Below are positions 1-48,689 of a DNA stretch of 64,000 nucleotides, in pieces. A program made the translations under genes and the position numbers. The stretch comes from Labia minor (lineage: Eukaryota; Arthropoda; Insecta; Dermaptera; Spongiphoridae), in assembly GCA_963082975.1 (NCBI GenBank), contig OY720349.1:64540501-64604500 (forward strand). The letters run 5' to 3'. How positions within the stretch are numbered: the first letter of the stretch is position 1; each line of letters opens with the position of its first letter. The notes beneath the pieces are model-generated. The model was not told where the DNA came from, ran no database searches, and was given only the letters and a program-made list of their open reading frames with translations.

Positions 1-3000
1 CGCTAAAATCTTAACGAAAAATCTCGTTTTTTCTATGAAATCCACGAAAATAATTTAGATATCGATGCAATTTGAATTTATTCGTGTTTAGAATAAGAAA
101 TAAATAAGAATGATATATAATACATAAAATTTATATTTATATTTAAAAAAGTAGCATTTTCGCTAAAATCTTAATGAAAAATGTCGTTTTTTCTATGAAA
201 TCCACAAAAATAATTGAGATATTGATGAAATTTGAATTTATTATTGTTTAGAATTAGAAATAAATAAGAATGATATATAATTCATAAATTTTATATTTCT
301 ATTTAAAAAAGTAGCATTTTCGCTAACATCATAATGAAAAATCTCGTTTTTTCTATGAAATCCACAAAAATAATTGAGATATCGATGAAATTTGAATTTA
401 TTCTTGTTTAGAATAAGAAATAAATAAGAATGATATATAATTCATAAATTATATATTTCTATTTAAAAAAGTAGCATTTTCGCTAAAATCTTAATGAAAA
501 ATGTCGTTTTTTCTATGAAATCCACGAAAATAATTGAGATATCGATGAAATTTGAATTTATTCTTGTTTAGAATTAGAAATAAATAAGAATGATATATAA
601 TTCATAAATTTTATATTTCTATTTAAAAAAGTAGCATTTTCGCTAAAATCTTAATGAAAAATGTCGTTTTTTCTATGATATCCACAAAAATCATTGAGAT
701 ATCGATGAAATTTGAATTTATTCGTGTTCAGAATAAGAAATAAATAAGAATGATATATAATTCATAAATTTTATATTTCTATTTAAAAAAGTAGCATTTT
801 CGCTAAAATCTTAATGAAAAATGTCGTTTTTTCTATGAAATCCACAAAAATAATTGAGATATTGATGAAATTTGAATTTATTATTGTTTAGAATTAGAAA
901 TAAATAAGAATGATATATAATTCATAAATTTTATATTTCTATTTAAAAAAGTAGCATTTTCGCTAACATCTTATAATGAAAAATCTCGTTTTTTCTATGA
1001 AATCCACAAAAATAATTGAGATATCGATGAAATTTGAATTTATTCGTGTTCAGAATAAGAAATAAATAAGAATGATATATAATTCATAAATTTTATATTT
1101 CTAATTAAAAAAGTAGCATTTTCGCTAAAATCTTAATGAAAAATCTCGTTGTTTCTATGAAATCCACGAAAATAATTGAGATATCGATGCAATTTGAATT
1201 TATTCGTGTTTAGAATAAGAACTAAATAAGAATGATATATAATTCATAAATTTTATATTTCTATTTAAAAAAGTAGCATTATCGCTAAAATTATAATGAA
1301 AAATCTCGTTTTTTCTATGATATCCACAAAAATAATTGAGATATCGATGAAATTTGAATTTATTCGTGTTCAGAATAAGAAATAAATAAGAATGATATAT
1401 AATTCATAAATTTTATATTTCTATTTAAAAAAGTAGCATTTTCGCTAAAATCTTAATGAAAAATGTCGTTTTTTCTATGAAATCCACGAAAATAATTTAG
1501 ATATCGATGCAATTTGAATTTATTCGTGTTTAGAATAAGAAATAAATAAGAATGATATATAATTCATAAAATTTATATTTCTAATTAAAAAAGTAGCATT
1601 TTCGCTAAAATCTTAATGAAAAATCTCGTTTTTTCTATGATATCCACAAAAATAATTGAGATATCGATGAAATTTGAATTTATTCGTGTTCAGAATAAGA
1701 AATAAATAAGAATGATATATAATTCATAAATTTTATATTTCTAATTAAAAAAGTAGCATTTTCGCTAAAATCTTAATGAAAAATCTCGTTTTTTCTATGA
1801 AATCCACGAAAATAATTTAGATATCGATGCAATTTGAATTTATTCGTGTTTAGAATAAGAAATAAATAAGAATGATATATAATTCATAAAATTTATATTT
1901 CTAATTAAAAAAGTAGCATTTTCGCTAAAATCTTTATGAAAAATCTCGTTTTTTCTATGAAATCCACGAAAATAATTTAGATTTCGATGCAATTTGAATT
2001 TATTCGTGTTTAGAATAAGAAATAAATAAGAATGATATATAATTCATAAATTTTATATTTATATTTAAAAAAGTAGCATTTTCGCTAAAATCTTAATTAA
2101 AAATCTCGTTTTTTCTATGAAATCCACGAAAATAATTGAGATATCGATGAAATTTGAATTTATTCGTGTTCAGAATAAGAAATAAATAAGAATGATATAT
2201 AATTCATAAATTTTATATTTCTATTTAAAAAAGTAGCATTTTCGCTAAAATCTTAATGAAAAATGTCGTTTTTTCTATGAAATCCACGAAAATAATTGAG
2301 ATATCGATGAAATTTGAATTTATTCTTGTTTAGAATTAGAAATAAATAAGAATGATATATAATTCATAAATTTTATATTTCTATTTAAAAAAGTAGCATT
2401 TTCGCTAAAATCTTAATGAAAAATCTGGTTTTTTCTATGAAATCCACGAAAATAATTGAGATATCGATGAAATTTGAATTTATTCGTGTTCAGAATAAGA
2501 AATAAATAAGAATGATATATAATTCATAAAATTTATATTTCTAATTAAAAAAGTAGCATTTTCGCTAAAATCTTTATGAAAAATCTCGTTTTTTCTATGA
2601 AATCCACGAAAATAATTTAGATTTCGATGCAATTTGAATTTATTCGTGTTTAGAATAAGAAATAAATAAGAATGATATATAATTCATAAATTTTATATTT
2701 ATATTTAAAAAAGTAGCATTTTCGCTAAAATCTTAATTAAAAATCTCGTTTTTTCTATGAAATCCACGAAAATAATTGAGATATCGATGAAATTTGAATT
2801 TATTCGTGTTCAGAATAAGAAATAAATAAGAATGATATATAATTCATAAATTTTATATTTCTATTTAAAAAAGTAGCATTTTCGCTAAAATCTTAATGAA
2901 AAATGTCGTTTTTTCTATGAAATCCACGAAAATAATTGAGATATCGATGAAATTTGAATTTATTCTTGTTTAGAATTAGAAATAAATAAGAATGATATAT

Positions 3001-5124
3001 AATTCATAAATTTTATATTTCTAATTAAAAAAGTAGCATTTTCGCTAAAATCTTAATGAAATATCTCGTTTTTTCTATGAAATCCACGAAAATAATTGAG
3101 ATATCGATGCAATTTGAATTTATTCGTGTTTAGAATAAGAACTAAATAAGAATGATATATAATTCATAAATTTTATATTTCTATTTAAAAAAGTAGCATT
3201 ATCGCTAAAATTATAATGAAAAATCTCGTTTTTTCTATGATATCCACAAAAATAATTGAGATATCGATGAAATTTGAATTTATTCGTGTTCAGAATAAGA
3301 AATAAATAAGAATGATATATAATTCATAAATTTTATATTTCTATTTAAAAAAGTAGCATTTTCGCTAAAATCTTAATGAAAAATGTCGTTTTTTCTATGA
3401 AATCCACGAAAATAATTTAGATATCGATGCAATTTGAATTTATTCGTGTTTAGAATAAGAAATAAATAAGAATGATATATAATTCATAAAATTTATATTT
3501 CTAATTAAAAAAGTAGCATTTTCGCTAAAATCTTAATGAAAAATCTCGTTTTTTCTATGATATCCACAAAAATCATTGAGATATCGATGAAATTTGAATT
3601 TATTCGTGTTCAGAATAAGAAATAAATAAGAATGATATATAATTCATAAATTTTATATTTCTATTTAAAAAAGTAGCATTTTCGCTAAAATCTTAATGAA
3701 AAATGTCGTTTTTTCTATGAAATCCACGAAAATAATTGAGATATCGATGAAATTTGAATTTATTCTTGTTTAGAATTAGAAATAAATAAGAATGATATAT
3801 AATTCATAAATTTTATATTTCTATTTAAAAAAGTAGCATTTTCGCTAAAATCTTAATGAAAAATCTGGTTTTTTCTATGAAATCCACAAAAATAATTGAG
3901 ATATTGATGAAATTTGAATTTATTATTGTTTAGAATTAGAAATAAATAAGAATGATATATAATTCATAAATTTTATATTTCTATTTAAAAAAGTAGCATT
4001 TTCGCTAACATCTTATAATGAAAAATCTCGTTTTTTCTATGAAATCCACAAAAATAATTGAGATATCGATGAAATTTGAATTTATTCGTGTTCAGAATAA
4101 GAAATAAATAAGAATGATATATAATTCATAAATTTTATATTTCTAATTAAAAAAGTAGCATTTTCGCTAAAATCTTAATGAAAAATCTCGTTTTTTCTAT
4201 GAAATCCACGAAAATAATTGAGATATCGATGCAATTTGAATTTATTCGTGTTTAGAATAAGAACTAAATAAGAATGATATATAATTCATAAATTTTATAT
4301 TTCTATTTAAAAAAGTAGCATTATCGCTAAAATTATAATGAAAAATCTCGTTTTTTCTATGATATCCACAAAAATAATTGAGATATCGATGAAATTTGAA
4401 TTTATTCGTGTTCAGAATAAGAAATAAATAAGAATGATATATAATTCATAAATTTTATATTTCTATTTAAAAAAGTAGCATTTTCGCTAAAATCTTAATG
4501 AAAAATGTCGTTTTTTCTATGAAATCCACGAAAATAATTTAGATATCGATGCAATTTGAATTTATTCGTGTTTAGAATAAGAAATAAATAAGAATGATAT
4601 ATAATTCATAAATTTTATATTTCTATTTAAAAAAGTAGCATTTTCGCTAAAATCTTAATGAAAAATGTCGTTTTTTCTATGATATCCACAAAAATCATTG
4701 AGATATCGATGAAATTTGAATTTATTCGTGTTCAGAATAAGAAATAAATAAGAATGATATATAATTCATAAATTTTATATTTCTATTTAAAAAAGTAGCA
4801 TTTTCGCTAAAATCTTAATGAAAAATGTCGTTTTTTCTATGAAATCCACGAAAATAATTGAGATATCGATGAAATTTGAATTTATTCTTGTTTAGAATTA
4901 GAAATAAATAAGAATGATATATAATTCATAAATTTTATATTTCTATTTAAAAAAGTAGCATTTTCGCTAAAATCTTAATGAAAAATCTGGTTTTTTCTAT
5001 GAAATCCACAAAAATAATTGAGATATTGATGAAATTTGAATTTATTATTGTTTAGAATTAGAAATAAATAAGAATGATATATAATTCATAAATTTTATAT
5101 TTCTATTTAAAAAAGTAGCATTTT

Positions 5125-7526
5125 CGCTAACATCTTATAATGAAAAATCTCGTTTTTTCTATGAAATCCACAAAAATAATTGAGATATCGATGAAATTTG
5201 AATTTATTCGTGTTCAGAATAAGAAATAAATAAGAATGATATATAATTCATAAATTTTATATTTCTAATTAAAAAAGTAGCATTTTCGCTAAAATCTTAA
5301 TGAAAAATCTCGTTGTTTCTATGAAATCCACGAAAATAATTGAGATATCGATGCAATTTGAATTTATTCGTGTTTAGAATAAGAACTAAATAAGAATGAT
5401 ATATAATTCATAAATTTTATATTTCTATTTAAAAAAGTAGCATTATCGCTAAAATTATAATGAAAAATCTCGTTTTTTCTATGATATCCACAAAAATAAT
5501 TGAGATATCGATGAAATTTGAATTTATTCGTGTTCAGAATAAGAAATAAATAAGAATGATATATAATTCATAAATTTTATATTTCTATTTAAAAAAGTAG
5601 CATTTTCGCTAAAATCTTAATGAAAAATGTCGTTTTTTCTATGAAATCCACGAAAATAATTTAGATATCGATGCAATTTGAATTTATTCGTGTTTAGAAT
5701 AAGAAATAAATAAGAATGATATATAATTCATAAAATTTATATTTCTAATTAAAAAAGTAGCATTTTCGCTAAAATCTTAATGAAAAATCTCGTTTTTTCT
5801 ATGATATCCACAAAAATAATTGAGATATCGATGAAATTTGAATTTATTCGTGTTCAGAATAAGAAATAAATAAGAATGATATATAATTCATAAATTTTAT
5901 ATTTCTAATTAAAAAAGTAGCATTTTCGCTAAAATCTTAATGAAAAATCTCGTTTTTTCTATGAAATCCACGAAAATAATTTAGATATCGATGCAATTTG
6001 AATTTATTCGTGTTTAGAATAAGAAATAAATAAGAATGATATATAATTCATAAAATTTATATTTCTAATTAAAAAAGTAGCATTTTCGCTAAAATCTTTA
6101 TGAAAAATCTCGTTTTTTCTATGAAATCCACGAAAATAATTTAGATTTCGATGCAATTTGAATTTATTCGTGTTTAGAATAAGAAATAAATAAGAATGAT
6201 ATATAATTCATAAATTTTATATTTATATTTAAAAAAGTAGCATTTTCGCTAAAATCTTAATTAAAAATCTCGTTTTTTCTATGAAATCCACGAAAATAAT
6301 TGAGATATCGATGAAATTTGAATTTATTCGTGTTCAGAATAAGAAATAAATAAGAATGATATATAATTCATAAATTTTATATTTCTATTTAAAAAAGTAG
6401 CATTTTCGCTAAAATCTTAATGAAAAATGTCGTTTTTTCTATGAAATCCACGAAAATAATTGAGATATCGATGAAATTTGAATTTATTCTTGTTTAGAAT
6501 TAGAAATAAATAAGAATGATATATAATTCATAAATTTTATATTTCTAATTAAAAAAGTAGCATTTTCGCTAAAATCTTAATGAAAAATCTCGTTTTTTCT
6601 ATGAAATCCACGAAAATAATTGAGATATCGATGCAATTTGAATTTATTCGTGTTTAGAATAAGAACTAAATAAGAATGATATATAATTCATAAATTTTAT
6701 ATTTCTATTTAAAAAAGTAGCATTATCGCTAAAATTATAATGAAAAATCTCGTTTTTTCTATGATATCCACAAAAATAATTGAGATATCGATGAAATTTG
6801 AATTTATTCGTGTTCAGAATAAGAAATAAATAAGAATGATATATAATTCATAAATTTTATATTTCTATTTAAAAAAGTAGCATTTTCGCTAAAATCTTAA
6901 TGAAAAATGTCGTTTTTTCTATGAAATCCACGAAAATAATTTAGATATCGATGCAATTTGAATTTATTCGTGTTTAGAATAAGAAATAAATAAGAATGAT
7001 ATATAATTCATAAAATTTATATTTCTAATTAAAAAAGTAGCATTTTCGCTAAAATCTTAATGAAAAATCTCGTTTTTTCTATGATATCCACAAAAATCAT
7101 TGAGATATCGATGAAATTTGAATTTATTCGTGTTCAGAATAAGAAATAAATAAGAATGATATATAATTCATAAATTTTATATTTCTATTTAAAAAAGTAG
7201 CATTTTCGCTAAAATCTTAATGAAAAATGTCGTTTTTTCTATGAAATCCACGAAAATAATTGAGATATCGATGAAATTTGAATTTATTCTTGTTTAGAAT
7301 TAGAAATAAATAAGAATGATATATAATTCATAAATTTTATATTTCTATTTAAAAAAGTAGCATTTTCGCTAAAATCTTAATGAAAAATCTGGTTTTTTCT
7401 ATGAAATCCACAAAAATAATTGAGATATTGATGAAATTTGAATTTATTATTGTTTAGAATTAGAAATAAATAAGAATGATATATAATTCATAAATTTTAT
7501 ATTTCTATTTAAAAAAGTAGCATTTT
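5125..7526. repeat. 15-monomer higher-order repeat unit of the satellite
   Basis: Reading diagnostic variants along the array gives a 15-monomer order here, 2402 bp from one TTATAATG-bearing monomer (5125) to the next (7527). The variants used are ATCTCG versus ATGTCG versus ATCTGG, GATATCCAC versus GAAATCCAC, ATTTAG versus ATTGAG, CAATTT versus AAATTT, AGAACTAAAT, and ATTATCGCT. The first nine monomers recur in the same order at 961-2402 and at 7527-8966. Shortened versions occur at 4003-5124 (7 monomers) and 10089-12010 (12 monomers). This is the pattern left by unequal crossing-over of multi-monomer blocks, as in alpha-satellite higher-order repeats. I compared variants by eye, not by alignment. 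Confidence 0.85.
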
Positions 7527-10500
7527 CGCTAACATCTTATAATGAAAAATCTCGTTTTTTCTATGAAATCCACAAAAATAATTGAGATATCGATGAAATT
7601 TGAATTTATTCGTGTTCAGAATAAGAAATAAATAAGAATGATATATAATTCATAAATTTTATATTTCTAATTAAAAAAGTAGCATTTTCGCTAAAATCTT
7701 AATGAAAAATCTCGTTTTTTCTATGAAATCCACGAAAATAATTGAGATATCGATGCAATTTGAATTTATTCGTGTTTAGAATAAGAACTAAATAAGAATG
7801 ATATATAATTCATAAATTTTATATTTCTATTTAAAAAAGTAGCATTATCGCTAAAATTATAATGAAAAATCTCGTTTTTTCTATGATATCCACAAAAATA
7901 ATTGAGATATCGATGAAATTTGAATTTATTCGTGTTCAGAATAAGAAATAAATAAGAATGATATATAATTCATAAATTTTATATTTCTATTTAAAAAAGT
8001 AGCATTTTCGCTAAAATCTTAATGAAAAATGTCGTTTTTTCTATGAAATCCACGAAAATAATTTAGATATCGATGCAATTTGAATTTATTCGTGTTTAGA
8101 ATAAGAAATAAATAAGAATGATATATAATTCATAAAATTTATATTTCTAATTAAAAAAGTAGCATTTTCGCTAAAATCTTAATGAAAAATCTCGTTTTTT
8201 CTATGATATCCACAAAAATAATTGAGATATCGATGAAATTTGAATTTATTCGTGTTCAGAATAAGAAATAAATAAGAATGATATATAATTCATAAATTTT
8301 ATATTTCTAATTAAAAAAGTAGCATTTTCGCTAAAATCTTAATGAAAAATCTCGTTTTTTCTATGAAATCCACGAAAATAATTTAGATATCGATGCAATT
8401 TGAATTTATTCGTGTTTAGAATAAGAAATAAATAAGAATGATATATAATTCATAAAATTTATATTTCTAATTAAAAAAGTAGCATTTTCGCTAAAATCTT
8501 TATGAAAAATCTCGTTTTTTCTATGAAATCCACGAAAATAATTTAGATTTCGATGCAATTTGAATTTATTCGTGTTTAGAATAAGAAATAAATAAGAATG
8601 ATATATAATTCATAAATTTTATATTTATATTTAAAAAAGTAGCATTTTCGCTAAAATCTTAATTAAAAATCTCGTTTTTTCTATGAAATCCACGAAAATA
8701 ATTGAGATATCGATGAAATTTGAATTTATTCGTGTTCAGAATAAGAAATAAATAAGAATGATATATAATTCATAAATTTTATATTTCTATTTAAAAAAGT
8801 AGCATTTTCGCTAAAATCTTAATGAAAAATGTCGTTTTTTCTATGAAATCCACGAAAATAATTGAGATATCGATGAAATTTGAATTTATTCTTGTTTAGA
8901 ATTAGAAATAAATAAGAATGATATATAATTCATAAATTTTATATTTCTATTTAAAAAAGTAGCATTTTCGCTAAAATCTTTACGAAAAATCTCGTTTTTT
9001 CTATGAAATCCACAAAAATAATTGAGATATCGATGAAATTTGAATTTATTCGTGTTCAGAATAAGAAATAAGTAAGAATGATATATAATTCATAAATTTT
9101 ATATTTCTATTTAAAAAAGTAGCATTTTCGCTAAAATCTTAATGAAAAATGTTGTTTTTTCTATGAAATCCCCGAAAATAATTGAGATATCGATGCAATT
9201 TGAATTTATTCTTGTTTAGAATAAGAAATAAATAAGAATGATATATAATTCATAAATTTTATATTTCTATTTAATAAAGTAGCATTTTCGCTAAAATCTT
9301 AATGAAAAATGTCGTTTTTTCTATGAAATCCACGAAAATAATTGAGATAGCGATGAAATTTGAATTTATTCTTGTTTAGAATTAGAAATAAATAAGAATG
9401 ATATATAATTCATAAATTTTATATTTCTATTTAAAAAAGTAGCATTTTCGCTAACATCTTAATGAAAAATCTCGTTTTTTCTATGAAATCCACAAAAATA
9501 ATTGAGATATCGATGAAATTTGAATTTATTCGTGTTCAGAATAAGAAATAAATAAGAATGATATATAATTCATAAATTTTATATCTCTATTTAAAAAAGT
9601 AGCATTTTCGCTAAAATCTTAATGAAAAATCTCGTATTTTCTATGAAATCCACGAAAATAATTGAGATATCGATGAAATTTGAATTTATTCGTGTTTAGA
9701 ATAAGAAATAAGTAAGAATGATATATAATTCATAAATTTTATATTTCTATTTAAAAAAGTAGCATTTTCGCTAAAATCTTAATGAAAAATGTTGTTTTTT
9801 CTATGAAATCCACGAAAATAATTGAGATATCGATGCAATTTGAATTTATTCGTGTTTAGAATAAGAAATAAATAAGAATGATATATAATTCATAAATTTT
9901 ATATTTCTAATTAAAAAAGTAGCATTATCGCTAAAATCATAATGAAAATTCTCGTTTTTTCTATGAAGTCCACGAAAATAATTGAGATATCGATGAAATT
10001 TGAATTTATTCGTGTTCAGAATAAGAAATAAATATGAATGATATATAATTCATAAATTTTATATTTCTATTTAAAAAAGTAGCATTTTCGCTAACATCTT
10101 ATAATGAAAAATCTCGTTTTTTCTATGAAATCCACAAAAATAATTGAGATATCGATGAAATTTGAATTTATTCGTGTTCAGAATAAGAAATAAATAAGAA
10201 TGATATATAATTCATAAATTTTATATTTCTAATTAAAAAAGTAGCATTTTCGCTAAAATCTTAATGAAAAATCTCGTTGTTTCTATGAAATCCACGAAAA
10301 TAATTGAGATATCGATGCAATTTGAATTTATTCGTGTTTAGAATAAGAACTAAATAAGAATGATATATAATTCATAAATTTTATATTTCTATTTAAAAAA
10401 GTAGCATTATCGCTAAAATTATAATGAAAAATCTCGTTTTTTCTATGATATCCACAAAAATAATTGAGATATCGATGAAATTTGAATTTATTCGTGTTCA

Positions 10501-12010
10501 GAATAAGAAATAAATAAGAATGATATATAATTCATAAATTTTATATTTCTAATTAAAAAAGTAGCATTTTCGCTAAAATCTTAATGAAAAATCTCGTTTT
10601 TTCTATGAAATCCACGAAAATAATTTAGATATCGATGCAATTTGAATTTATTCGTGTTTAGAATAAGAAATAAATAAGAATGATATATAATTCATAAAAT
10701 TTATATTTCTAATTAAAAAAGTAGCATTTTCGCTAAAATCTTTATGAAAAATCTCGTTTTTTCTATGAAATCCACGAAAATAATTTAGATTTCGATGCAA
10801 TTTGAATTTATTCGTGTTTAGAATAAGAAATAAATAAGAATGATATATAATTCATAAATTTTATATTTATATTTAAAAAAGTAGCATTTTCGCTAAAATC
10901 TTAATTAAAAATCTCGTTTTTTCTATGAAATCCACGAAAATAATTGAGATATCGATGAAATTTGAATTTATTCGTGTTCAGAATAAGAAATAAATAAGAA
11001 TGATATATAATTCATAAATTTTATATTTCTATTTAAAAAAGTAGCATTTTCGCTAAAATCTTAATGAAAAATGTCGTTTTTTCTATGAAATCCACGAAAA
11101 TAATTGAGATATCGATGAAATTTGAATTTATTCTTGTTTAGAATTAGAAATAAATAAGAATGATATATAATTCATAAATTTTATATTTCTAATTAAAAAA
11201 GTAGCATTTTCGCTAAAATCTTAATGAAAAATCTCGTTTTTTCTATGAAATCCACGAAAATAATTGAGATATCGATGCAATTTGAATTTATTCGTGTTTA
11301 GAATAAGAACTAAATAAGAATGATATATAATTCATAAATTTTATATTTCTATTTAAAAAAGTAGCATTATCGCTAAAATTATAATGAAAAATGTCGTTTT
11401 TTCTATGAAATCCACGAAAATAATTTAGATATCGATGCAATTTGAATTTATTCGTGTTTAGAATAAGAAATAAATAAGAATGATATATAATTCATAAAAT
11501 TTATATTTCTAATTAAAAAAGTAGCATTTTCGCTAAAATCTTAATTAAAAATCTCGTTTTTTCTATGAAATCCACGAAAATAATTGAGATATCGATGAAA
11601 TTTGAATTTATTCGTGTTCAGAATAAGAAATAAATAAGAATGATATATAATTCATAAATTTTATATTTCTATTTAAAAAAGTAGCATTTTCGCTAAAATC
11701 TTAATGAAAAATGTCGTTTTTTCTATGAAATCCACGAAAATAATTGAGATATCGATGAAATTTGAATTTATTCTTGTTTAGAATTAGAAATAAATAAGAA
11801 TGATATATAATTCATAAATTTTATATTTCTATTTAAAAAAGTAGCATTTTCGCTAAAATCTTAATGAAAAATCTGGTTTTTTCTATGAAATCCACAAAAA
11901 TAATTGAGATATTGATGAAATTTGAATTTATTATTGTTTAGAATTAGAAATAAATAAGAATGATATATAATTCATAAATTTTATATTTCTATTTAAAAAA
12001 GTAGCATTTT

Positions 12011-12266
12011 CGCTAACATCTTATAATGAAAAATCTCGTTTTTTCTATGAAATCCACAAAAATAATTGAGATATCGATGAAATTTGAATTTATTCGTGTT
12101 CAGAATAAGAAATAAATAAGAATGATATATAATTCATAAATTTTAATCCACGAAAATAATTGAGATATCGATGAAATTTGAATTTATTCGTGTTCAGAAT
12201 AAGAAATAAATAAGAATGATATATAATTCATAAATTTTATATTTCTATTTAAAAAAGTAACATTTT
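12011..12266. repeat. Out-of-register junction in the satellite array
   Basis: One monomer starting at 12011 runs normally to ATAAATTTTA at about 12145 and then jumps straight to ATCCACGAAAATAATTG, skipping roughly 66 bp. The skipped part is the end of one monomer and the start of the next. The stretch is therefore 256 bp long instead of 322. It separates a left part with 2-bp insertion variants and clear 15-mer blocks from a right part with none of those insertions. It looks like an internal deletion or an illegitimate exchange at a short AT microhomology. Confidence 0.9.
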
Positions 12267-15200
12267 CGCTAAAATCTTAATAAAAAATGTTGTTTTTTCT
12301 ATGAAATCCACGAAAATAATTTAGATATCGATGCAATTTCAATTTATTCGTGTTTAGAATAAGAAATAAATAAGAATGATATATAATTCATAAAATTTAT
12401 ATATCTAATTAAAAAAGTAGCATTATCGCTAAAATTATAATGAAAAATCTCGTTTTTTCTATGAAATCCACGAAAATTATTGAGATATCGATGAAATTTG
12501 AATTTATTCGTGTTTAGAATAAGAAATAAATAAGAATGATATATAAATCATAATATTTATATTTCTATTTAAAAAAGTAGCCTTTTCGCTAAAATCTTAA
12601 TGAAAAATGTTGTTTTTTCTATGAAATCCACGAAAATAATTGAGATATCGATGAAATTTGAATTTATTCGTGTTTAGAATAAGAAATAAATAAGAATGAT
12701 ATATAATTCATAAAATTTATATTTCTATTTAAAAAAGTAGCATTATCGCTAAAATCTTAATGAAAAATCTCTTTTTTTCTATGATATCCACAAAAATAAT
12801 TGAGATATCGATGAAATTTTAATTTATTCGTGTTCAGAATAATAAATAAATAAGAATGATATATAATTCATAAATTTTATATTTCTAATTAAAAAAGTAG
12901 CATTTTCGCTAAAATCTTAATGAAAAATCTCGTTTTTTCTATGAAATCCACGAAAATAATTTAGATATCGATGCAATTTGAATTTATTCGTGTTTAGAAT
13001 AAGAAATAAATAAGAATGATATATAATTCATAAAATTTATATTTCTAATTAAAAAAGTAGCATTTTCGCTAAAATCTTAATGAAAAATCTCGTTTTTTCT
13101 ATGAAATCCACGAAAATAATTTAGATATCGATGCAATTTGAATTTATTCGTGTTTAGAATAAGAAATAAATAAGAATGATATATAATTCATAAATTTTAT
13201 ATTTATATTTAAAAAAGTAGCATTTTCGCTAAAATCTTAATTAAAAATCTCGTTTTTTCTATGAAATCCACGAAAATAATTGAGATATCGATGAAATTTG
13301 AATTTATTCTTGTTTAAAATTAGAAATAAATAAGAATGATATATAATTCATAAATTTTATATTTATATTAAAAAAAGTAGCATTTTCGCTAAAATCTTAA
13401 TGAAAAATCTCGTTTTTTCTATGAAATCCACGAAAATAATTGAGATATCGATGAAATTTGAATTTATTCGTGTTTAGAATAAGAACTAAATAAGAATGAT
13501 ATATAATTCATAAATTTTATATTTCTATTTAAAAAAGTAGCATTTTCGCTAACATCTTAATGAAAAATCTCGTTTTTTCTATGAAATCCACAAAAATAAT
13601 TGAGATATCGATGAAATTTGAATTTATTCTTGTTTAGAATAAGAAATAAATAAGAATGATATATAATTCATAAATTTTATATTTCTATTTAAAAAAGTAG
13701 CATTTTCGCTAACATCTTAATGAAAAATGTCGTTTTTTCTATGAAATCCACGAAAATAATTGAGATATCGATGAAATTTGAATTTATTCTTGTTTAGAAT
13801 TAGAAATAAATAAGAATGATATATAATTCATAAAATTTATATTACTATTTAAAAAAGTAGCATTTTCGCTAAAATCTTAACGAAAAATCTCGTTTTTTCT
13901 ATGAAATCCACGAAAATAATTTAGATTTCGATGCAATTTGAATTTATTCGTGTTTAGAATAAGAACTAAATAAGAATGATATATAATTCATAAATTTTAT
14001 ATTTCTATTTAAAAAAGTAGCATTATCGCTAAAATTATAATGAAAAATCTCGTTTTTTCTATGATATCCACAAAAATAATTGAGATATCGATGAAATTTG
14101 AATTTATTCGTGTTCAGAATAAGAAATAAATAAGAATGATATATAATTCATAAATTTTATATTTCTAATTAAAAAAGTAGCATTTTCGCTAAAATCTTAA
14201 TGAAAAATCAGGTTTTTTCTATGAAATCCACGAAAATAATTTAGATTTCGATGCAATTTGAATTTATTCGTGTTTAGAATAAGAAATAAATAAGAATGAT
14301 ATATAATACATAAAATTTATATTTATATTTAAAAAAGTAGCATTTTCGCTAAAATCTTAATGAAAAATCTCGTTTTTTCTATGAAATCCACGAAAATAAT
14401 TTAGATTTCGATGCAATTTGAATTTATTCGTGATTAGAATAAGAAATAAATAAGAATGATATTTAATACATAAAATTTATATTACTATTTAAAAAAGTAG
14501 CATTTTCGCTAAAATCTTAACGAAAAATCTCGTTTTTTCTATGAAATCCACGAAAATAATTTAGATATCGATGCAATTTGAATTTATTCGTGTTTAGAAT
14601 AAGAAATAAATAAGAATGATATATAATACATAAAATTTATATTTATATTTAAAAAAGTAGCATTTTCGCTAAAATCTTAATGAAAAATGTCGTTTTTTCT
14701 ATGAAATCCACAAAAATAATTGAGATATTGATGAAATTTGAATTTATTATTGTTTAGAATTAGAAATAAATAAGAATGATATATAATTCATAAATTTTAT
14801 ATTTCTATTTAAAAAAGTAGCATTTTCGCTAACATCATAATGAAAAATCTCGTTTTTTCTATGAAATCCACAAAAATAATTGAGATATCGATGAAATTTG
14901 AATTTATTCTTGTTTAGAATAAGAAATAAATAAGAATGATATATAATTCATAAATTATATATTTCTATTTAAAAAAGTAGCATTTTCGCTAAAATCTTAA
15001 TGAAAAATGTCGTTTTTTCTATGAAATCCACGAAAATAATTGAGATATCGATGAAATTTGAATTTATTCTTGTTTAGAATTAGAAATAAATAAGAATGAT
15101 ATATAATTCATAAATTTTATATTTCTATTTAAAAAAGTAGCATTTTCGCTAACATCTTAATGAAAAATCTCGTTTTTTCTATGAAATCCACAAAAATAAT

Positions 15201-18200
15201 TGAGATATCGATGAAATTTGAATTTATTCGTGTTCAGAATAAGAAATAAATAAGAATGATATATAATTCATAAATTTTATATTTATAATTAAAAAAGTAG
15301 CATTTTCGCTAAAATCTTAATGAAAAATCTCGTTTTTTCTATGAAATCCACGAAAATAATTTAGATTTCGATGCAATTTGAATTTATTCGTGTTTAGAAT
15401 AAGAAATAAATAAGAATGATATATAATACATAAAATTTATATTTATATTTAAAAAAGTAGCATTTTCGCTAAAATCTTAATGAAAAATCTCGTTTTTTCT
15501 ATGAAATCCACGAAAATAATTTAGATTTCGATGCAATTTGAATTTATTCGTGATTAGAATAAGAAATAAATAAGAATGATATATAATACATAAAATTTAT
15601 ATTACTATTTAAAAAAGTAGCATTTTCGCTAAAATCTTAACGAAAAATCTCGTTTTTTCTATGAAATCCACGAAAATAATTTAGATATCGATGCAATTTG
15701 AATTTATTCGTGTTTAGAATAAGAAATAAATAAGAATGATATATAATAAATAAAATTTATATTTATATTTAAAAAAGTAGCATTTTCGCTAAAATCTTAA
15801 TGAAAAATGTCGTTTTTTCTATGAAATCCACGAAAATAATTGAGATATCGATGAAATTTGAATTTATTCTTGTTTAGAATAAGAAATAAATAAGAATGAT
15901 ATATAATTCATAAATTTTATATTTCTATTTAAAAAAGTAGCATTTTCGCTAAAATCTTAATGAAAAATCTGGTTTTTTCTATGAAATCCACAAAAATAAT
16001 TGAGATATTGATGAAATTTGAATTTATTATTGTTTAGAATTAGAAATAAATAAGAATGATATATAATTCATAAATTTTATATTTCTATTTAAAAAAGTAG
16101 CATTTTCGCTAACATCTTAATGAAAAATCTCGTTTTTTCTATGAAATCCACAAAAATAATTGAGATATCGATGAAATTTGAATTTATTCTTGTTTAGAAT
16201 AAGAAATAAATAAGAATGATATATAATTCATAAATTTTATATTTCTATTTAAAAAAGTAGCATTTTCGCTAAAATCTTAATGAAAAATGTCGTTTTTTCT
16301 ATGAAATCCACGAAAATAATTGAGATATCGATGAAATTTGAATTTATTCTTGTTTAGAATTAGAAATAAATAAGAATGATATATAATTCATAAATTTTAT
16401 ATTTCTATTTAAAAAAGTAGCATTTTCGCTAACATCTTAATGAAAAATCTCGTTTTTTCTATGAAATCCACAAAAATAATTGAGATATCGATGAAATTTG
16501 AATTTATTCGTGTTCAGAATAAGAAATAAATAAGAATGATATATAATTCATAAATTTTATATCTCTATTTAAAAAAGTAGCATTTTCGCTAAAATCTTAA
16601 TGAAAAATCTGGTATTTTCTATGAAATCCACGAAAATAATTGAGATATCGATGAAATTTGAATTTATTCGTGTTTAGAATAAGAAATAAGTAAGAATGAT
16701 ATATAATTCATAAATTTTATATTTCTATTTAAAAAAGTAGCATTTTCGCTAAAATCTTAATGAAAAATGTTGTTTTTTCTATGAAATCCACGAAAATAAT
16801 TGAGATATCGATGCAATTTGAATTTATTCGTGTTTAGAATAAGAAATAAATAAGAATGATATATAATTCATAAATTTTATATTTCTATTTAAAAAAGTAG
16901 CATTTTCGCTAAAATCTTAATGAAAAATGTCGTTTTTTCTATGAAATCCACGAAAATAATTGAGATATCGATGAAATTTGAATTTATTCTTGTTTAGAAT
17001 TAGAAATAAATAAGAATGATATATAATTCATAAATTTTATATTTCTATTTAAAAAAGTAGCATTTTCGCTAACATCTTAATGAAAAATCTCGTTTTTTCT
17101 ATGAAATCCACGAAAATAATTTAGATTTCGATGCAATTTGAATTTATTCGTGTCTAGAATAAGAAATAAATAAGAATGATATATAATACATAAAATTTAT
17201 ATTTATATTTAAAAAAGTAGCATTTTCGCTAAATTCTTAATGAAAAATCTCGTTTTTTCTATGAAATCCACGAAAATAATTTAGATTTCGATACAATTTG
17301 AATTTATTCGTGATTAGAATAAGAAATAAATAAGAATGATATATAATACATAAAATTTATATTACTATTTAAAAAAGTAGCATTTTTGATAAAATCTTAA
17401 CGAAAAATCTCGTTTTTTCTATGAAATCCACGAAAATAATTGAGATATCGATGAAATTTGAATTTATTCTTGTTTAGAATTAGAAATAAATAAGAATGAT
17501 ATATAATTCATAAATTTTATATTTCTATTTAAAAAAGTAGCATTTTCGCTAACATCTTAATGAAAAATCTCGTTTTTTCTATGAAATCCACAAAAATAAT
17601 TGAGATATCGATGAAATTTGAATTTATTCGTGTTCAGAATAAGAAATAAATAAGAATGATATATAATTCATAAATTTTATATCTCTATTTAAAAAAGTAG
17701 CATTTTCGCTAAAATCTTAATGAAAAATGTTGTTTTTTCTATGAAATCCACGAAAATAATTGAGATATCGATGCAATTTGAATTTATTCGTGTTTAGAAT
17801 AAGAACTAAATAAGAATGATATATAATTCATAAATTTTATATTTCTATTTAAAAAAGTAGCATTATCGCTAAAATTATAATGAAAAATCTCGTTTTTTCT
17901 ATGATATCCTCAAAAATAATTGAGATATCGATGAAATTTGAATTTATTCGTGTTCAGAATAAGAAATAAATAAGAATGATATATAATTCATAAATTTTAT
18001 ATTTCTATTTAAAAAAGTAGCATTTTCGCTAAAATCTTAATGAAAAATCTCGTTTTTTCTATGAAATCCACGAAAATAATTTAGATTTCGATGCAATTTG
18101 AATTTATTCGTGATTAGAATAAGAAATAAATAAGAATGATATATAATACATAAAATTTATATTACTATTTAAAAAAGTAGCATTTTCGCTAAAATCTTAA

Positions 18201-20429
18201 TGAAAAATCTCGTATTTTCTATGAAATCCACGAAAATAATTGAGATATCTATGAAATTTGAATTTATTCTTGTTTAGAATTAGAAATAAATAAGAATGAT
18301 ATATAATTCATAAAATTTATTTTTCTATTTAAAAAAGTATCATTTTCGCTAAAATCTTAATGAAAAATCTCGTTTTTTCTATTAAATCCACGAAAATAAT
18401 TGAGATATCGATGAAATTTGAATTTATTCTTGTTTAGAATTAGAAATAAATAAGAATGATATATAATTCATAAATTGTATATTTCTATTTAAAAAAGTAG
18501 CATTTTCGCTAAAATATTAATGAAAAATGTCGTTTTTTCTATGAAATCCACGAAAATAATTGAGATATCGATGCAATTTGAATTTATTCGTGTTTAGAAT
18601 AAGAAATAAAAAAGAATGATATATAATTCATAAATTTTATATCTCTATTTAAAAAAGTAGCATTTTCGCTAAAATCTTAATGAAAAATGTTGTTTTTTCT
18701 ATGAAATCCACGAAAATAATTGAGATATCGATGCAATTTGAATTTATTCGTGTTTAGAATAAGAACTAAATAAGAATGATATATAATTCATAAATTTTAT
18801 ATTTCTATTTAAAAAAGTAGCATTATCGCTAAAATTATAATGAAAAATCTCGTTTTTTCTATGATATCCACAAAAATAATTGAGATATCGATGAAATTTG
18901 AATTTATTCGTGTTCAGAATAAGAAATAAATAAGAATGATATATAATTCATAAATTTTATATTTCTAATTAAAAAAGTAGCATTTTCGCTAAAATCTTAA
19001 TGAAAAATCTCGTTTTTTCTATGAAATCCACGAAAATAATTTAGATTTCGATGCAATTTGAATTTATTCGTGATTAGAATAAGAAATAAATAAGAATGAT
19101 ATATAATACATAAAATTTATATTACTATTTAAAAAAGTAGCAATTTCGCTAAAATCTTAACGAAAAATCTCGTTTTTTCTATGAAATCCACGAAAATAAT
19201 TTAGATATCGATGCAATTTGAATTTATTCGTGTTTAGAATAAGAAATAAATAAGAATGATATATAATACATAAAATTTATATTTATATTTAAAAAAGTAG
19301 CATTTTCGCTAAAATCTTAATGAAAAATCTCATATTTTCTATGAAATCCACGAAAATAATTGAGATATCTATGAAATTTGAATTTATTCTTGTTTAGAAT
19401 TAGAAATAAATAAGAATGATATATAATTCATAAAATTTATTTTTCTATTTAAAAAAGTATCATTTTCGCTAAAATATTAATGAAAAATGTCGTTTTTTCT
19501 ATGAAATCCACGAAAATAATTGAGATATCTATGAAATTTGAATTTATTCTTGTTTAGAATTAGAAATAAATAAGAATGATATATAATTCATAAAATTTAT
19601 TTTTCTATTTAAAAAAGTATCATTTTCGCTAAAATCTTAATGAAAAATCTCGTTTTTTCTATTAAATCCACGAAAATAATTGAGATATCGATGAAATTTG
19701 AATTTATTCTTGTTTAGAATTAGAAATAAATAAGAATGATATATAATTCATAAATTGTATATTTCTATTTAAAAAAGTAGCATTTTCGCTAAAATATTAA
19801 TGAAAAATGTTGTTTTTTCTATGAAATCCACGAAAATAATTGAGATATCGATGCAATTTGAATTTATTCGTGTTTAGAATAAGAACTAAATAAGAATGAT
19901 ATATAATTCATAAATTTTATATTTCTATTTAAAAAAGTAGCATTATCGCTAAAATTATAATGAAAAATCTCGTTTTTTCTATGATATCCACAAAAATAAT
20001 TGAGATATCGATGAAATTTGAATTTATTCGTGTTCAGAATAAGAAATAAATAAGAATGATATATAATTCATAAATTTTATATTTCTAATTAAAAAAGTAG
20101 CATTTTCGCTAAAATCTTAATGAAAAATCTCGTTTTTTCTATGAAATCCACGAAAATAATTGAGATATCGATGCAATTTGAATTTATTCGTGTTTAGAAT
20201 AAGAAATAAAAAAGAATGATATATAATTCATAAATTTTATATTTCTATTTATAAAAGTAGCATTTTCGCTAATCCCTACAAAAATCATGTTAGCTAATAT
20301 TTTAATTAAAACCTTTTTAAACTGAAAATACAAAAAGCAAAATTTGCTCTAAAAAGGAAGAAATTATAAATTACACATCAATCATATAAATTCAATAAAC
20401 ATTTTCAAAGGAAAAAAATTTAAGTAAAA

Positions 20430-21011
20430 AGCGGAATATGGAATAGTTCACTATTTCAATCATAGATGGCAATAGCAGTTCTATTAAAATTAAATTAAAT
20501 GAGGTTGTAAAAAAATGTTACACATGTTATTAATAAGAAATATTTAAAATAACGACTACATTTATTTACGTACGACTAAAAAGTATAAAATAAATTTAAG
20601 TAAAAATAAATATTTTTAAAAAACACACTTTACTTAAAATTTCACTAAAAAGTAAAAAATAAAATCACTGTAAAGTGTCTGCGCTCAGATTATAATAACA
20701 AATTTATAATAACATAATAGTGGAAGCAAATGTTTTACGGTGTTATTATAATTTGAGAGCACACACTTTACAGTGATTTTATTTTTTACTTTTTAGTGCA
20801 ATTTTAAGTAAAGTGTGTTTTTTAAAAATATTTATTTTTACTTAAATTTATTTTATACTTTTTAGTCGTACGTAAATAAATGTAGTCGTTATTTTAAATA
20901 TTTCTTATTAATAACATGTGTAACATTTTTTTACAACCTCATTTAATTTAATTTTAATAGAACTGCTATTGCCATCTATGATTGAAATAGTGAACTATTC
21001 CATATTCCGCT
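20430..21011. mobile_element. Foldback (long inverted repeat) element, 582 bp
   Basis: Two arms of about 270 bp (20431-20700 and 20741-21010) are near-perfect reverse complements around a 40-bp spacer. The ends read AGCGGAATATGG and CCATATTCCGCT. Differences are few; for example the inner ends read GTGTCTGCGCTCAGATT on the left, against GTGTGTGCTCTCAAATT for the reverse complement of the right arm. There is no ORF and no clear target-site duplication, so the superfamily is unknown. A transcript would fold into a long hairpin. It sits only about 160 bp from the end of the satellite array. Confidence 0.9.
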
Positions 21012-29409: not shown

Positions 29410-29444
29410 ATTGTTAAATTATAACTAAACAGTATAATATTTAT
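29410..29444 (+). repeat. 35-bp direct repeat, left copy
   Basis: Begins ATTGTTAAATTATAACTAAA and ends at ATATTTAT. It matches 30828-30862 at 34 of 35 positions. The two copies exactly bracket the gag-protease-integrase fragment. Confidence 0.9.
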
Positions 29445-29888
29445 GAAGATTGGTTCCAATGGTCAGGGTCATTTCTTCAAACGTTTGCAGAAAAAGGTTG
29501 GTCAGCTGTTCGTTATCCATATAACTTTACATATTTTAAAGAATATGGATCATATATAGAATATGCATTGAAGAAAGAACGTTTGCTTTTGGTGTGCGAG
29601 AGAAATATTACAGAAATATCAATAATAAACTATATTGTAATTGGATTACCTGTTTTTATTCAAAATAAATTAGATAAAGAGGTGATCAATTCACCAGAAA
29701 TACTAATGAACCAATTAAGAAAATATGATTCAAACACCTTTAAAGTACAACATAATGTACAAAATAATGATATAGATTCGAGAAAAAAAATTTTGAATGA
29801 AAAAAGAAAGCCTACTCCATGCAACATCTGCGAATCCATTGGAAAAACTAACCCCTATCATTCAAGTGCTGGAATAGAAAAATGGTAA
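29445..29888 (+). pseudogene. Gag fragment of a Ty3/gypsy-like LTR retrotransposon
   Basis: Translation from 29445 is open to about 29888. It begins EDWFQWSGSFLQTFAEKGWS, continues through the usual gag region (ALKKERLLLVCERN, IVIGLPVFIQNKLDKE), and ends in a degenerate zinc knuckle (CNICESIGKTNPYH). In the family, Gag packages the element RNA in particles. The N-terminus and any LTR are missing, and the first base of the fragment abuts the left 35-bp direct repeat. The first ATG lies well inside (29568), so this is a truncated gene and not an intact one. Confidence 0.75.
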
Positions 29889-29969
29889 ACCTAACAGAAG
29901 AAGAAGAAGAAATAAATATAGACCTAGATAATCAAAAAAACTAAATAGGCCGGAGGGTGAGTGTCCATC

Positions 29970-30051
29970 CCTAATTAAAGTAAATGTTATAATAGATAGG
30001 AAAAAATTGGTAAAAGGCATTTACGATAGTGGATCTAATATCACTGTGATT
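29970..30051 (+). pseudogene. Retropepsin N-terminal remnant
   Basis: In one frame the sequence gives KVNVIIDRKKLVKGIYDSGS followed by NITVI. YDSGSNITVI is the aspartic-protease active-site loop of LTR retrotransposons (D-S/T-G). The protein is cut off directly after it, where the integrase zinc finger begins in another frame. Reverse transcriptase and RNase H, which should lie between, are entirely absent. Confidence 0.7.
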
Positions 30052-30827
30052 CTTGTCAAATATGCAAAAGGAATAAAACAAGAAGAGGTCGCCTAATTGG
30101 TAAACTGTCACACCTAGGTCCAGCGACAAGGCCATATGAGATTATGTCAGTAGATACCGTAGGAGGATTCAGTGGAAACAATTCAAAAAAGCAATATTTA
30201 CACATCCTAGCGGATCACTTTTCAAAATTCGCTTTTACATCTACGTCAAAAGAGCAAACGGCTGGAGATTTCATTCATTTGATAGTTCCTATACTAAGAA
30301 AAAACGAAATTAAGGTTCTCCTGGATGATCAATATGCTGGATTGAACTCAAAAGAATTCAAAGAATACTTGAAATCAAGAGGCGTTAATTTAGTTTATAC
30401 TTCAGTAAATTGTCCAGAGTCGAATGGATTTAATGAGCGGATACACCAAACATTAGTAAACCGAATTAGATTTAAGATAAATAGTGAACAAAGAAGAAAA
30501 CAAAAATGGACAAAGATAGTGGAAGAATGTACTTATGAATATAACAATACTATCAATAGTGTGACGAAATTTACGCCAAGGTATCTAATACTAGGTGAGG
30601 ACGAGTCAAATATTATTTCGAATGAAATTAAGAAAAAAAGAGATCAGTCAACAGATCGTTTACAAGCACTGAAAAATTCTTTAGAAAATCATAAAAAAAA
30701 ACAAAATACGTTGTGATAAAAAACGGAAGGATTATACTTTTGCAGGGAACGACTTAGTATCAATAGAAATAAATTTGATGAAGTTAGAACGGGACCTTTT
30801 CCAATAAAATCCGACTTATTTCAAGTG
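30048..30827 (+). pseudogene. Ty3/gypsy-like integrase, core intact, ends lost
   Basis: The frame opens with the end of the HHCC zinc finger (DSCQICKRNKTRRGR, 30048 on), then runs through the catalytic core; the ATG-initiated part is 30144-30716, 190 residues. The core shows D4 (SVDT), D62 (LDDQYAG) and E98 (GFNERIHQTL), that is, a proper DD35E spacing, and the typical NSVTKFTPRYLILG segment follows. The function in the family is insertion of element cDNA into host DNA. A stop at 30714-30716 breaks the frame; homology seems to continue (KFDEVRTGPFPIKSD) with a frameshift to about 30820, where it stops at the right direct repeat. There are no LTRs, RT or RNase H, so it is not mobile by itself. 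Confidence 0.85.
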
Positions 30828-46792: not shown

Positions 46793-47183
46793 CAGTTCAG
46801 TTTTGGCATTCAAATAGAAAGGATCAAGAGCTAATCTTTATATTTAATTCTATATATAGTGTGAGTTGAGTCAAATGACCTTTTCTTTTATAATTAATAT
46901 TAGTTTATTTAAATTTTATTGTATATAAAATTGTATATAATTTTAATATATATTTCTTATTTAACTTTACCCTCTTACTAACAGCCTATCTAGGGCCTTC
47001 CCTCTCCAAAAATGCCCCGAAAGGCCTCGGTGGCACCCAAAATTCTTTCTCTCTCCTTTCTTTAAATGTATATATTATTATTATTGTTATTAATGTTATT
47101 GTTGTTATATTTTTTTTTTTTTTTTTGTTATTATTATTTTCGTTCTTTATTTTATGCCTCCAAATTAATTGAAAAATATAATC

Positions 47184-48689
47184 ATGCAGGCAGGCGATTT
47201 GAATTGCAATCCATTCAAGGGAAATACCTTGAATCGATCACCTCCAGTCCCACGAATAGATGGTACAAAAGTAAATGATGAAGAGCAGAAATTAATTGCC
47301 TCGTCTCCTCTCCCTCCACTTATGTCGTGCACCCTTACAAACAGTAAAAGTTATTATAATGAATGGCAAAACGAAATAAAAGAAAAAAAAGCCCTTGAGC
47401 AAATAATAATTGAAATGCAACAACAGATTAAAAATCTGGAAAATAAAATAAAGATGATAGATGAAAAAAATGCATCGTCATCTATTCAAACAGTAATTGA
47501 ACCAGTTTATAGTACTGATGAAGAAGAATTTGAAAAAGGAACTGACTGGATTGTTAAAACTAATAAAAAAAGAAAGTTGAACATCTCTATCAGTCCAGAA
47601 AATATTGATAAAAATATGAAAACAAAAAATATAGAAAAATATGAAAGTGAAAAAATGCAAAAGCCATATAACAATAACACTTCATCAAAATATGTTAAAG
47701 ATGATAAATTCGATTCAAAACCACCACCAATTTATGTAAAGGAACAAAATAACCATGCACAATTTACACTTAGACTTAAAAATGAGTTGGGGGTGAATAA
47801 ATTTCTAGCTAAAACACTTAGCAATGGTGATCTTAAGATTAATTTAGAAACATGTGAAGTATATCGAAATATGATTGACTTTCTTAAAAGAAACGCTGTA
47901 TCACATCATACTTATGAGAACAAAAGTAACCGACCTATAAGAGTCATGGCAAAAGGTCTCCACTGTAGTTGGGATCCTGATGAAATCTTAAATGATCTTA
48001 AAAATAGAGGTCTTGCTATTGAACAAGTTACCCCAAAGCTTTCATGGAAAACAAAAAAGCCTCTTAACATGTTCATGCTAACCTTCAAAAATTCAGAAAA
48101 CATTGAAACAATTTACAAAATAAACAGTATTCTTTATACCAAAATTGAAATTCACCCGATGCGTGGGTCAAAATTGGTTCCACAATGCAAAAAATGCCAA
48201 AAATTTGGGCATACACAAAACTACTGTTCGACAGGACCGAGATGCGTTAAGTGCAAGGTCAAGGGTCATCTAACTAAAGATTGCCCAAAACCAAAAGAAA
48301 ATAAGGCAGAATGTGTAAACTGTGGCGGCGAACACCCTGCAAACTATCGTGGATGCGAAATAGCAATAAAAGCTCAAGAATTGCGAGCTAAACAAGTGAA
48401 AGTAAATTCACAAAGGCCAAATATTGAGAATGCATTACACCAAAAAACCCAACAACAAACTCATACTAAACCAAAAGTGATAGAAAAAATAGATCTACTC
48501 CCAAGAAAAGATAATAACAGTTATTCAGATAAACTTAAGAATGACGCAAGCCTGAATGCGACACTCCAAATAGTACTGAATAAGATAAATAAAATTGAAT
48601 CTTTTCAAAATAAGATGAAAACCTCAATTACGGCAATTAATAGGCGAATAGGAGCGCTTGAAAATAAAAAATCTAATTATAAAAAATAA
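47184..48689 (+). CDS. LINE ORF1 nucleic-acid-binding protein (Gag-like)
   Basis: 501 residues from the ATG at 47184 (MQAGDLNCNPFKGNT); the reading frame is open for five more codons upstream but those lack an ATG. Domains: a coiled-coil stretch at about 57-92 (KALEQIIIEMQQQIKNLENK); an acidic and lysine-rich linker; a PRE_C2HC/RRM-like region at about 245-330 (RPIRVMAKGLHCSWDPDEIL); then three CCHC-type zinc knuckles at about 335-395 (CKKCQKFGHTQNYC, CVKCKVKGHLTKDC, CVNCGGEHPANYRGC). A second coiled coil closes the C-terminus. In Jockey and relatives this protein binds the element RNA and carries it to the nucleus as a ribonucleoprotein. The stop codon overlaps the ORF2 start in TAATG, so ORF2 is probably made by termination-reinitiation. 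Confidence 0.9.
   Translation: MQAGDLNCNPFKGNTLNRSPPVPRIDGTKVNDEEQKLIASSPLPPLMSCTLTNSKSYYNEWQNEIKEKKALEQIIIEMQQQIKNLENKIKMIDEKNASSSIQTVIEPVYSTDEEEFEKGTDWIVKTNKKRKLNISISPENIDKNMKTKNIEKYESEKMQKPYNNNTSSKYVKDDKFDSKPPPIYVKEQNNHAQFTLRLKNELGVNKFLAKTLSNGDLKINLETCEVYRNMIDFLKRNAVSHHTYENKSNRPIRVMAKGLHCSWDPDEILNDLKNRGLAIEQVTPKLSWKTKKPLNMFMLTFKNSENIETIYKINSILYTKIEIHPMRGSKLVPQCKKCQKFGHTQNYCSTGPRCVKCKVKGHLTKDCPKPKENKAECVNCGGEHPANYRGCEIAIKAQELRAKQVKVNSQRPNIENALHQKTQQQTHTKPKVIEKIDLLPRKDNNSYSDKLKNDASLNATLQIVLNKINKIESFQNKMKTSITAINRRIGALENKKSNYKK

Follow-up and report, generated by a model that had tools for sequence, protein, structure and literature searches.

The window considered here, a 64,000-bp stretch of chromosome 5 of the earwig Labia minor (Dermaptera; C6:64540501-64604500 of the 604-Mb assembly, where C6 is chromosome 5, OY720349.1), opens with a satellite DNA array in which variant monomers recur in a fixed order, and the question raised by this locus is whether that order stems from a single higher-order repeat (HOR) unit, as an initial annotation had proposed ("15-monomer HOR with shortened derivatives"), and how such an array grows. 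No single 15-mer unit underlies the chromosome-5 array, which is pieced together from short-lived tandem units 4 to 17 monomers long. The account we regard as likely is that this is a non-coding, subterminal satellite, whose chromosome-5 array expands through successive in-register duplications of multi-monomer blocks atop an older exchange of short tracts.

Tandem Repeats Finder (TRF) and a split into monomers defined positions 1-20272 of the window as a single tandem array of a 160-bp monomer, 80% A+T, yielding 126 monomers. The full-array analysis, covering the window plus 100 kb to its left, placed the whole array at C6:~64470369-64560772 (~90.4 kb, ~565 monomers), starting ~70.1 kb left of the window. 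The 27-mer AAATAAGAATGATATATAATTCATAAA, the core of the monomer, has 9566 exact copies genome-wide and its reversed control none, a count that corresponds to at least ~1.5 Mb of satellite in the genome; the same 27-mer had 0 matches in the viral and prokaryote collections. The long head-to-tail array contains no closed stop-to-stop frame of at least 120 aa, and the family occurs at many loci, as expected of a satellite DNA family. A known RNA family was ruled out as its identity by the empty result with Rfam at the gathering threshold in the window, and a transposon carrying the array was rejected, since no element directly adjoins the satellite at more than one edge in the eight flanks compared, which came from array edges and from short dispersed copies. 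Dispersed repeats do lie within ~30 bp of the satellite at two single edges, namely the left edge of the chromosome-5 array and a short copy at C1:6.44 Mb. The least variable 20 bp of the monomer were no better than permutation as a conserved protein-binding box (P 0.11), even with their variability biased downward by their use as the anchor for picking monomers, and the satellite would appear to lack a sequence-specific function.

The 15-monomer, 2402-bp block of the initial annotation exists in two copies with 5 differences over 15 monomers: monomers 26-40, which begin at 4165, pair with monomers 41-55, which begin at 6567, at lag 15, a distance of 2402 bp, the longest matched run in the window (Table 1). 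The private variants recur in order, the five starts given for the 162-bp monomers carrying a TA insertion are exact, and a sixth monomer with the insertion, which has grown to 256 bp, begins at 12011. Adjacent monomers differ at a mean of 7.96 of ~160 positions (123 pairs, with the 256-bp monomer left out), and a difference of 0 or 1 was never seen between them; the mean difference within the window drops at lags of 7, 15, 22 and 29 monomers. Monomers at the same position of neighbouring blocks are 99.8% identical, as compared with ~95% for adjacent monomers. With 5 differences in 15 monomers against 7.96 per adjacent pair, and with the block in at least two tandem copies, the blocks are therefore higher-order in the strict sense, the opposite of the outcome (adjacent monomers as similar as those one block apart) that the annotation had named as its refutation. 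The off-diagonal stripes predicted at 2402 and 1122 bp, the latter from a 7-mer, are both present. The window holds 30 runs of at least three monomers at two or fewer differences each, the longest being 15, whereas 500 shuffles of monomer order gave a mean of 0.9 such runs and a longest run of 4. The span of 961..8966 assigned to the repeat fared less well: the block is real, but the 2402-bp pair stops near 8949, and its two copies lie within a larger duplication and are not the unit of the array.

Over the full array, the tandem units among those listed comprise 4, 5, 7, 8, 12, 15 and 17 monomers, each in ~2-3 copies (1.75-2.75 by monomer count). No dominant period was found in the 565 monomers; the best lags are 91, 50, 7, 64, 84, 71, 15 and 28, and each matches at one difference or fewer in ~21% of pairs or fewer. 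The annotation was thus right about higher-order blocks in an invertebrate host, but the single founder unit gives way to many unit sizes. The blocks pervade the array, as 425 of the 565 monomers fall inside a block of at least five monomers that recurs at one difference or fewer per monomer, against 0 in 30 shuffles that randomise monomer order, and 352 remain when lags 90-92 are left out. The longest run in the whole array is 83 monomers at 1 difference, where 20 shuffles never exceeded 4. With the anchor phasing used, the 15-mer pair itself is missing from the list of recurring blocks, apparently since one of its monomers has 3 differences, and was found by the other comparisons. The blocks are nested, the largest repeat (13,511 bp, with 2 mismatches, at a distance of 14,506 bp) carrying the 15-mer pair twice over. 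All 382 of 382 near-identical block pairs are in register, with every monomer anchor of one copy meeting an anchor of the other, which indicates that exchange follows homology. A hotspot for block boundaries was rejected, as their positions are spread over many sites, no comparison with expectation having been made.

Two rare variants act as tags of single origin. The exact 25-base word spanning the TA insertion has 15 copies genome-wide, all within 37 kb of this array (C6:64515270-64552535), and this confinement to one array points to local block duplication from one origin. Each TA copy has more than 600 bp of flank in common with another copy on at least one side, and the joint shared length has a median of 745 bp among TA copies (105 pairs) compared with 39 bp for 1000 random in-register pairs; for the copies at -25230 and 961, a junction lies within ~135 bp on their other side. 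The second tag, the 94-bp junction word of the 256-bp monomer, has exactly two copies in the genome, 14,506 bp apart. The initial annotation had drawn mosaic exchange between blocks from the variant GTTGTTTC, which is indeed found at 1148, 5312 and 10276 (monomers 1123, 5287 and 10251) and not in monomers 4165 and 7689. A tree accommodates all but 4 of 210 site pairs in 13 of the 15 TA-bearing blocks (two, put out of register by the 94-bp piece, were dropped), and the GTTGTTTC site takes part in one of the four conflicts. Mosaic exchange is consequently not required: a single GTTGTTTC mutation inherited through block duplication nearly suffices, and the recent history of the TA copies is mostly one of block duplication.

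An older layer is visible inside the monomers. Among 175 distinct chromosome-5 monomers with 20 common variable sites, all four combinations occur in 129 of 190 site pairs, and mean r2 is 0.09 at 1-5 bp (8 pairs), 0.16 at 5-15 bp and no more than 0.02 beyond 75 bp. The four combinations and the fall of r2 with distance indicate that older short exchange, whether conversion or crossover, shuffled variants within monomers; three other arrays tested gave the same sign of decay with a noisier fall. If the 13.5-kb copy is not a product of assembly, an assumed rate of 3e-9 per site per generation would put its age at ~25,000 generations (range ~3,000-89,000).

Five arrays were compared, on chromosomes 1, 2 and 5 and two on chromosome 6. 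The chromosome-5 array shares no identical monomer with the other four (smallest difference 1-4), while the mean difference is 7.8 within chromosome 5 and 6.9 between chromosome-5 and chromosome-1 monomers. The identity of an array lies, then, in private variants and block order and not in overall divergence. Differences within the array are clearly below those between arrays on chromosome 1 at 119.15 Mb and chromosome 6 at 14.48 Mb; array-specific homogenisation as a general rule fails for chromosomes 5 and 2. Block structure likewise varies. Chromosome 6 at 57.1 Mb has 30 block runs against a shuffle mean of 0.3, its array at 14.48 Mb has a longest run of 34 against 8 in shuffles, and at 2.15 Mb on chromosome 2 there is a single run of 8 with shuffles reaching 3; an excess is not clear for the chromosome-1 array at 119.15 Mb (36 runs against 31.6, longest 10 against 14 in shuffles). 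A further 15-monomer tandem block, of 2398 bp with 25 mismatches in 3720 bp and without the TA word, lies on chromosome 6 at 2.12 Mb (C9:2.119-2.126 Mb), and on chromosome 4 the 9 kb sampled at 81.79 Mb contain a 1379-bp repeat at a distance of 2613 bp with 1 mismatch, equivalent to 16.3 monomers and so spanning a partial monomer. The chromosome-1 array (C1:119.14-119.16 Mb) has a 204-bp monomer variant, with 11 such spacings, in which a 44-bp insert holds an inverted ~35 bp of the monomer; the insert word has 7 exact copies genome-wide, all in ~7.3 kb of this array.

Complete match lists of three rare-variant words defined 32 chromosomal loci of the satellite, spread over the seven chromosomes, of which five have them at both ends and chromosome 4 and X at the right end only; matches on unplaced contigs (7 on C12, 3 on C64 and 2 on C41) were dropped. 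Twenty-nine of the 32 lie within 10 Mb of an end, where 23% would be expected (binomial P ~1e-15), and right-end loci number 15 plus and 3 minus as compared with 4 plus and 10 minus at left ends (Fisher P 0.003), both P values being too small since neighbouring loci on one arm are non-independent. All 32 are within 15 Mb of an end and none is in mid-chromosome, so that the sampled loci are concentrated near chromosome ends, as in a subterminal satellite. A strict strand rule, suggested when the first 24 loci gave 13 of 13 right-end loci on the plus strand, was weakened to a tendency by the fuller list. The right end of C6 carries repeats of TTCGG, the telomere motif reported for Labia minor (PMC11829193). 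Seven of the 24 matches of one rare variant are on C12, a 29,012-bp contig that thus contains unplaced satellite. For one variant word, 99 of the 100 matches listed (of 171, ordered by contig) fall at the left end of chromosome 2 (C2:2.08-6.52 Mb), where those listed occupy four or more places and both strands. A run of N, either an assembly gap or a withheld stretch, lies inside the edge of another satellite array at C1:117.12 Mb.

Taken together, these data are compatible with growth by layered duplication. Misaligned sister chromatids or homologues would exchange unequally but in register, copying runs of monomers; replication-restart or template-switch repair would be an alternative molecular step with the same outcome. 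Each duplication would fix a series of distinguishable monomers for a time as a higher-order unit, later duplications would nest inside or overlap earlier units, and older short-tract exchange would already have shuffled variants within the monomers. We infer both unequal exchange as the molecular step and this order of events. Several observations weigh against the scheme. The 14,506-bp event is no clean tandem duplication, as only 13,511 bp match, and a later change or insertion is needed. Reads average ~10 kb (PMC11937785), so that a step of 14.5 kb could be a product of assembly. Block structure is not universal, the array on chromosome 1 at 119.15 Mb being without clear excess over shuffles, and the chromosome-5 array is not homogenised on average (7.8 within, 6.9 to chromosome 1). 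One partial monomer of 94 bp is joined off register, which homology alone does not explain. Finally, sequence alone cannot separate unequal crossover from break-induced replication or the re-insertion of circular copies.

Of the competing explanations, the one that survives best, although we consider it doubtful, is that assembly created the 14.5-kb duplication, for instance by placing two haplotypes or a single repeat in series, with the smaller blocks real. Two mismatches in 13,511 bp would fit such an error in an assembly made from PacBio HiFi reads at 24-fold coverage (14.74 Gb in 1.46 million reads; PMC11937785). No N occurs in the 164 kb examined, however, the published consensus quality is 57.7 (PMC11937785), the flanks of the two copies differ on both sides and the copy length amounts to just 93% of the repeat distance. 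The blocks of 15 and of 7 monomers, moreover, are far shorter than the reads and independent of the 14.5-kb step. It is unlikely that the blocks arose mainly from circular DNA, by excision, rolling-circle amplification and re-insertion instead of unequal exchange in place. The inexact tandem arrangement of the 13.5-kb copy and the presence of same-class blocks at several distances speak for this route, but it predicts many tandem copies of one unit where ~2-3 are observed, and the exact TA and chromosome-1 marker words are found in their own array only.

Centromere-linked processes have been proposed to drive HOR layering in active alpha-satellite arrays, and a comparable role here would make the satellite a kinetochore-associated unit of holocentric chromosomes. 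Dermaptera are reported to be holocentric, on modest and partly conflicting evidence concerning the order and not Labia minor itself, and CenH3 was not found in two earwig transcriptomes (Drinnenberg et al. 2014, PMC4359364). The satellite matches many separate places on all seven chromosomes, and the holocentromeres of Chionographis japonica consist of a few megabase-sized satellite arrays (PMC10264360). Against this, the 32 sampled loci avoid the chromosome middles, and no 20-bp stretch of the monomer is conserved beyond chance. No CenH3-like gene was recognised among 109 PF00125 matches (150 of 153 candidates scored), a search without a monocentric-insect positive control that leaves absence unproven; five matches were judged by translation, reading by eye as H3, H3.3, two H2A (one diverged) and an NF-YC-like protein, and the rest by profile range alone. 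The terminal location and the lack of a visible CenH3 argue against a CenH3 centromere role of the satellite, as far as sequence can tell, and make the kinetochore explanation improbable. Clustered histone-family matches in repeated units were also noted on chromosome 1 (C1:85.4 and 94.9 Mb) and chromosome 5 (C6:23.4, 25.8 and 49.9 Mb). Chance recurrence of monomer types in a simple array that has few variable sites, for which only the 20 common variable sites on chromosome 5 could speak, is negligible in likelihood and is refuted by the shuffles: no run exceeded 4 monomers in 500 shuffles of the window (at 2 differences) or 20 of the whole array (at 1 difference), where the longest observed runs were 15 and 83, and 30 further shuffles of the whole array left no monomer in a recurring block of five.

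The remark of the initial annotation that such repeats are sparsely described in invertebrates is only partly fair, as HORs have been reported in beetles, Drosophila, stick insects, nematodes and a kissing bug. The Labia minor array is a satellite with nested, irregular higher-order blocks, a layering most familiar from primate centromeres. Like the earwig array, alpha satellite has a monomer of near-nucleosome length, block copies that are 97-100% alike with monomers differing more within the block and, in suprachromosomal family 3, HORs that are mostly chromosome-specific. The array-specific variants of the earwig (15 of 15 TA words in one array and no identical monomers shared with the four others) are a further alpha-type trait. 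The regularity of alpha satellite is not seen: its within-unit monomers are ~70% identical and it lies at CENP-A centromeres, whereas the earwig array has ~95% identical adjacent monomers, ~2-3 copies per unit, no dominant n-mer, a length of 90 kb and a subterminal place. Meloidogyne chitwoodi and M. fallax (PMC3694981), also holocentric invertebrates, have HOR and simple arrays with long and short HOR variants, but these join diverged satellites (32-86% identity) around conserved boxes, unlike the single earwig family, in which no conserved box was detected. In the kissing bug Triatoma infestans, a holocentric insect of a different order, TinfSat09-113 (PMC9957312) is a HOR whose 113-bp unit arose from a 25-bp sequence by duplications and insertions, as opposed to kilobase blocks of 160-bp monomers. 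Satellites of the Drosophila ananassae subgroup (PMC11917152) share recent expansion, complexity and higher-order structure in an insect, but are pericentromeric, in stretches of up to 2 Mb and in a fly genus. Beetles likewise provide insect HORs (PMC5615363), those of Tribolium madens deriving from one ancestral unit (PMC13081366); regular beetle HORs are usually dimeric and others have inverted units (PMC5615363), whereas the earwig blocks are long, direct and in register. The centromere HORs of Timema douglasi (PMC11691646) occur in a polyneopteran insect too, but on three autosomes, from two repeat families and in CenH3-bound regions. No description of an earwig satellite was found in a non-exhaustive literature search judged by titles and abstract openings among the papers listed, and the word "satellite" is absent from the Labia minor genome note (PMC11937785).

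Table 1. Features of the satellite array, in window coordinates
Feature	Position	Strand	Evidence and remarks
160-bp satellite array, right-hand 20 kb of the ~90.4-kb array	1..20272	+	TRF, monomer split, edges by blastn
162-bp monomer with TA insertion	961..1122	+	Monomer split; also at 4003, 5125, 7527, 10089 and within the 256-bp monomer at 12011
GTTGTTTC-bearing monomer	1123..1282	+	Common to 5287, 10251 and four in-array places left of the window
Copy of 13,511 bp at window coordinates -12864..646	1642..15152	+	Distance 14,506 bp, 2 mismatches; 2402-bp pair in both copies
7-monomer 1122-bp tandem block, ~2.6 copies	2978..5907	+	9 mismatches in 1808 bp
15-monomer 2402-bp block in two tandem copies	4100..8949	+	4100-6547 vs 6502-8949, 4 mismatches in 2448 bp
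Full 15-mer of the initial annotation, TA (162-bp) monomer to next TA monomer	5125..7526	+	Monomer split, run comparison
256-bp monomer, off-register 94-bp partial duplication	12011..12266	+	TRF, monomer split, junction word

The remainder of the window contains other repeats. A near-perfect hairpin with 271-bp arms (99%) lies at 20430-21011, ~158 bp past the end of the array, and related hairpins are dispersed in the genome (at least 74 matches, with 40 of the 952 candidates scored), which makes an ordinary foldback element its probable identity. Fragments of a long terminal repeat (LTR)-type element occupy 29418-30716, with an integrase core match under the Pfam cut-off and another frame upstream. 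A non-LTR retrotransposon at 47169-51358 has two long open reading frames (ORFs), ORF1 with PRE_C2HC and ORF2 with endonuclease and reverse transcriptase.

The interest of the earwig array lies in its reportedly holocentric host and its subterminal place. The TA insertion and the 94-bp junction, as tags of single origin, make its duplications orderable and, with population data, datable. A simpler HOR in a holocentric bug, TinfSat09-113 (PMC9957312), already points, as this array does, to HORs in holocentric hosts. Arrays also tend to be oriented alike with respect to the telomere (plus in 15 of 18 at right ends, minus in 10 of 14 at left ends), a tendency that may point to spread of the family by exchange between ends. 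Tentatively, then, layered HOR growth, usually tied to CENP-A arrays, may occur in non-centromeric, subterminal satellites of a holocentric insect lacking CenH3, in which case HOR formation would need no CenH3 kinetochore and the family would spread by exchange between chromosome ends. Models of HOR origin disagree on whether kinetochore chromatin drives layered expansion, and an earwig of an order reported to be holocentric and without CenH3, with nested, array-specific subterminal blocks, may serve them as a natural control.

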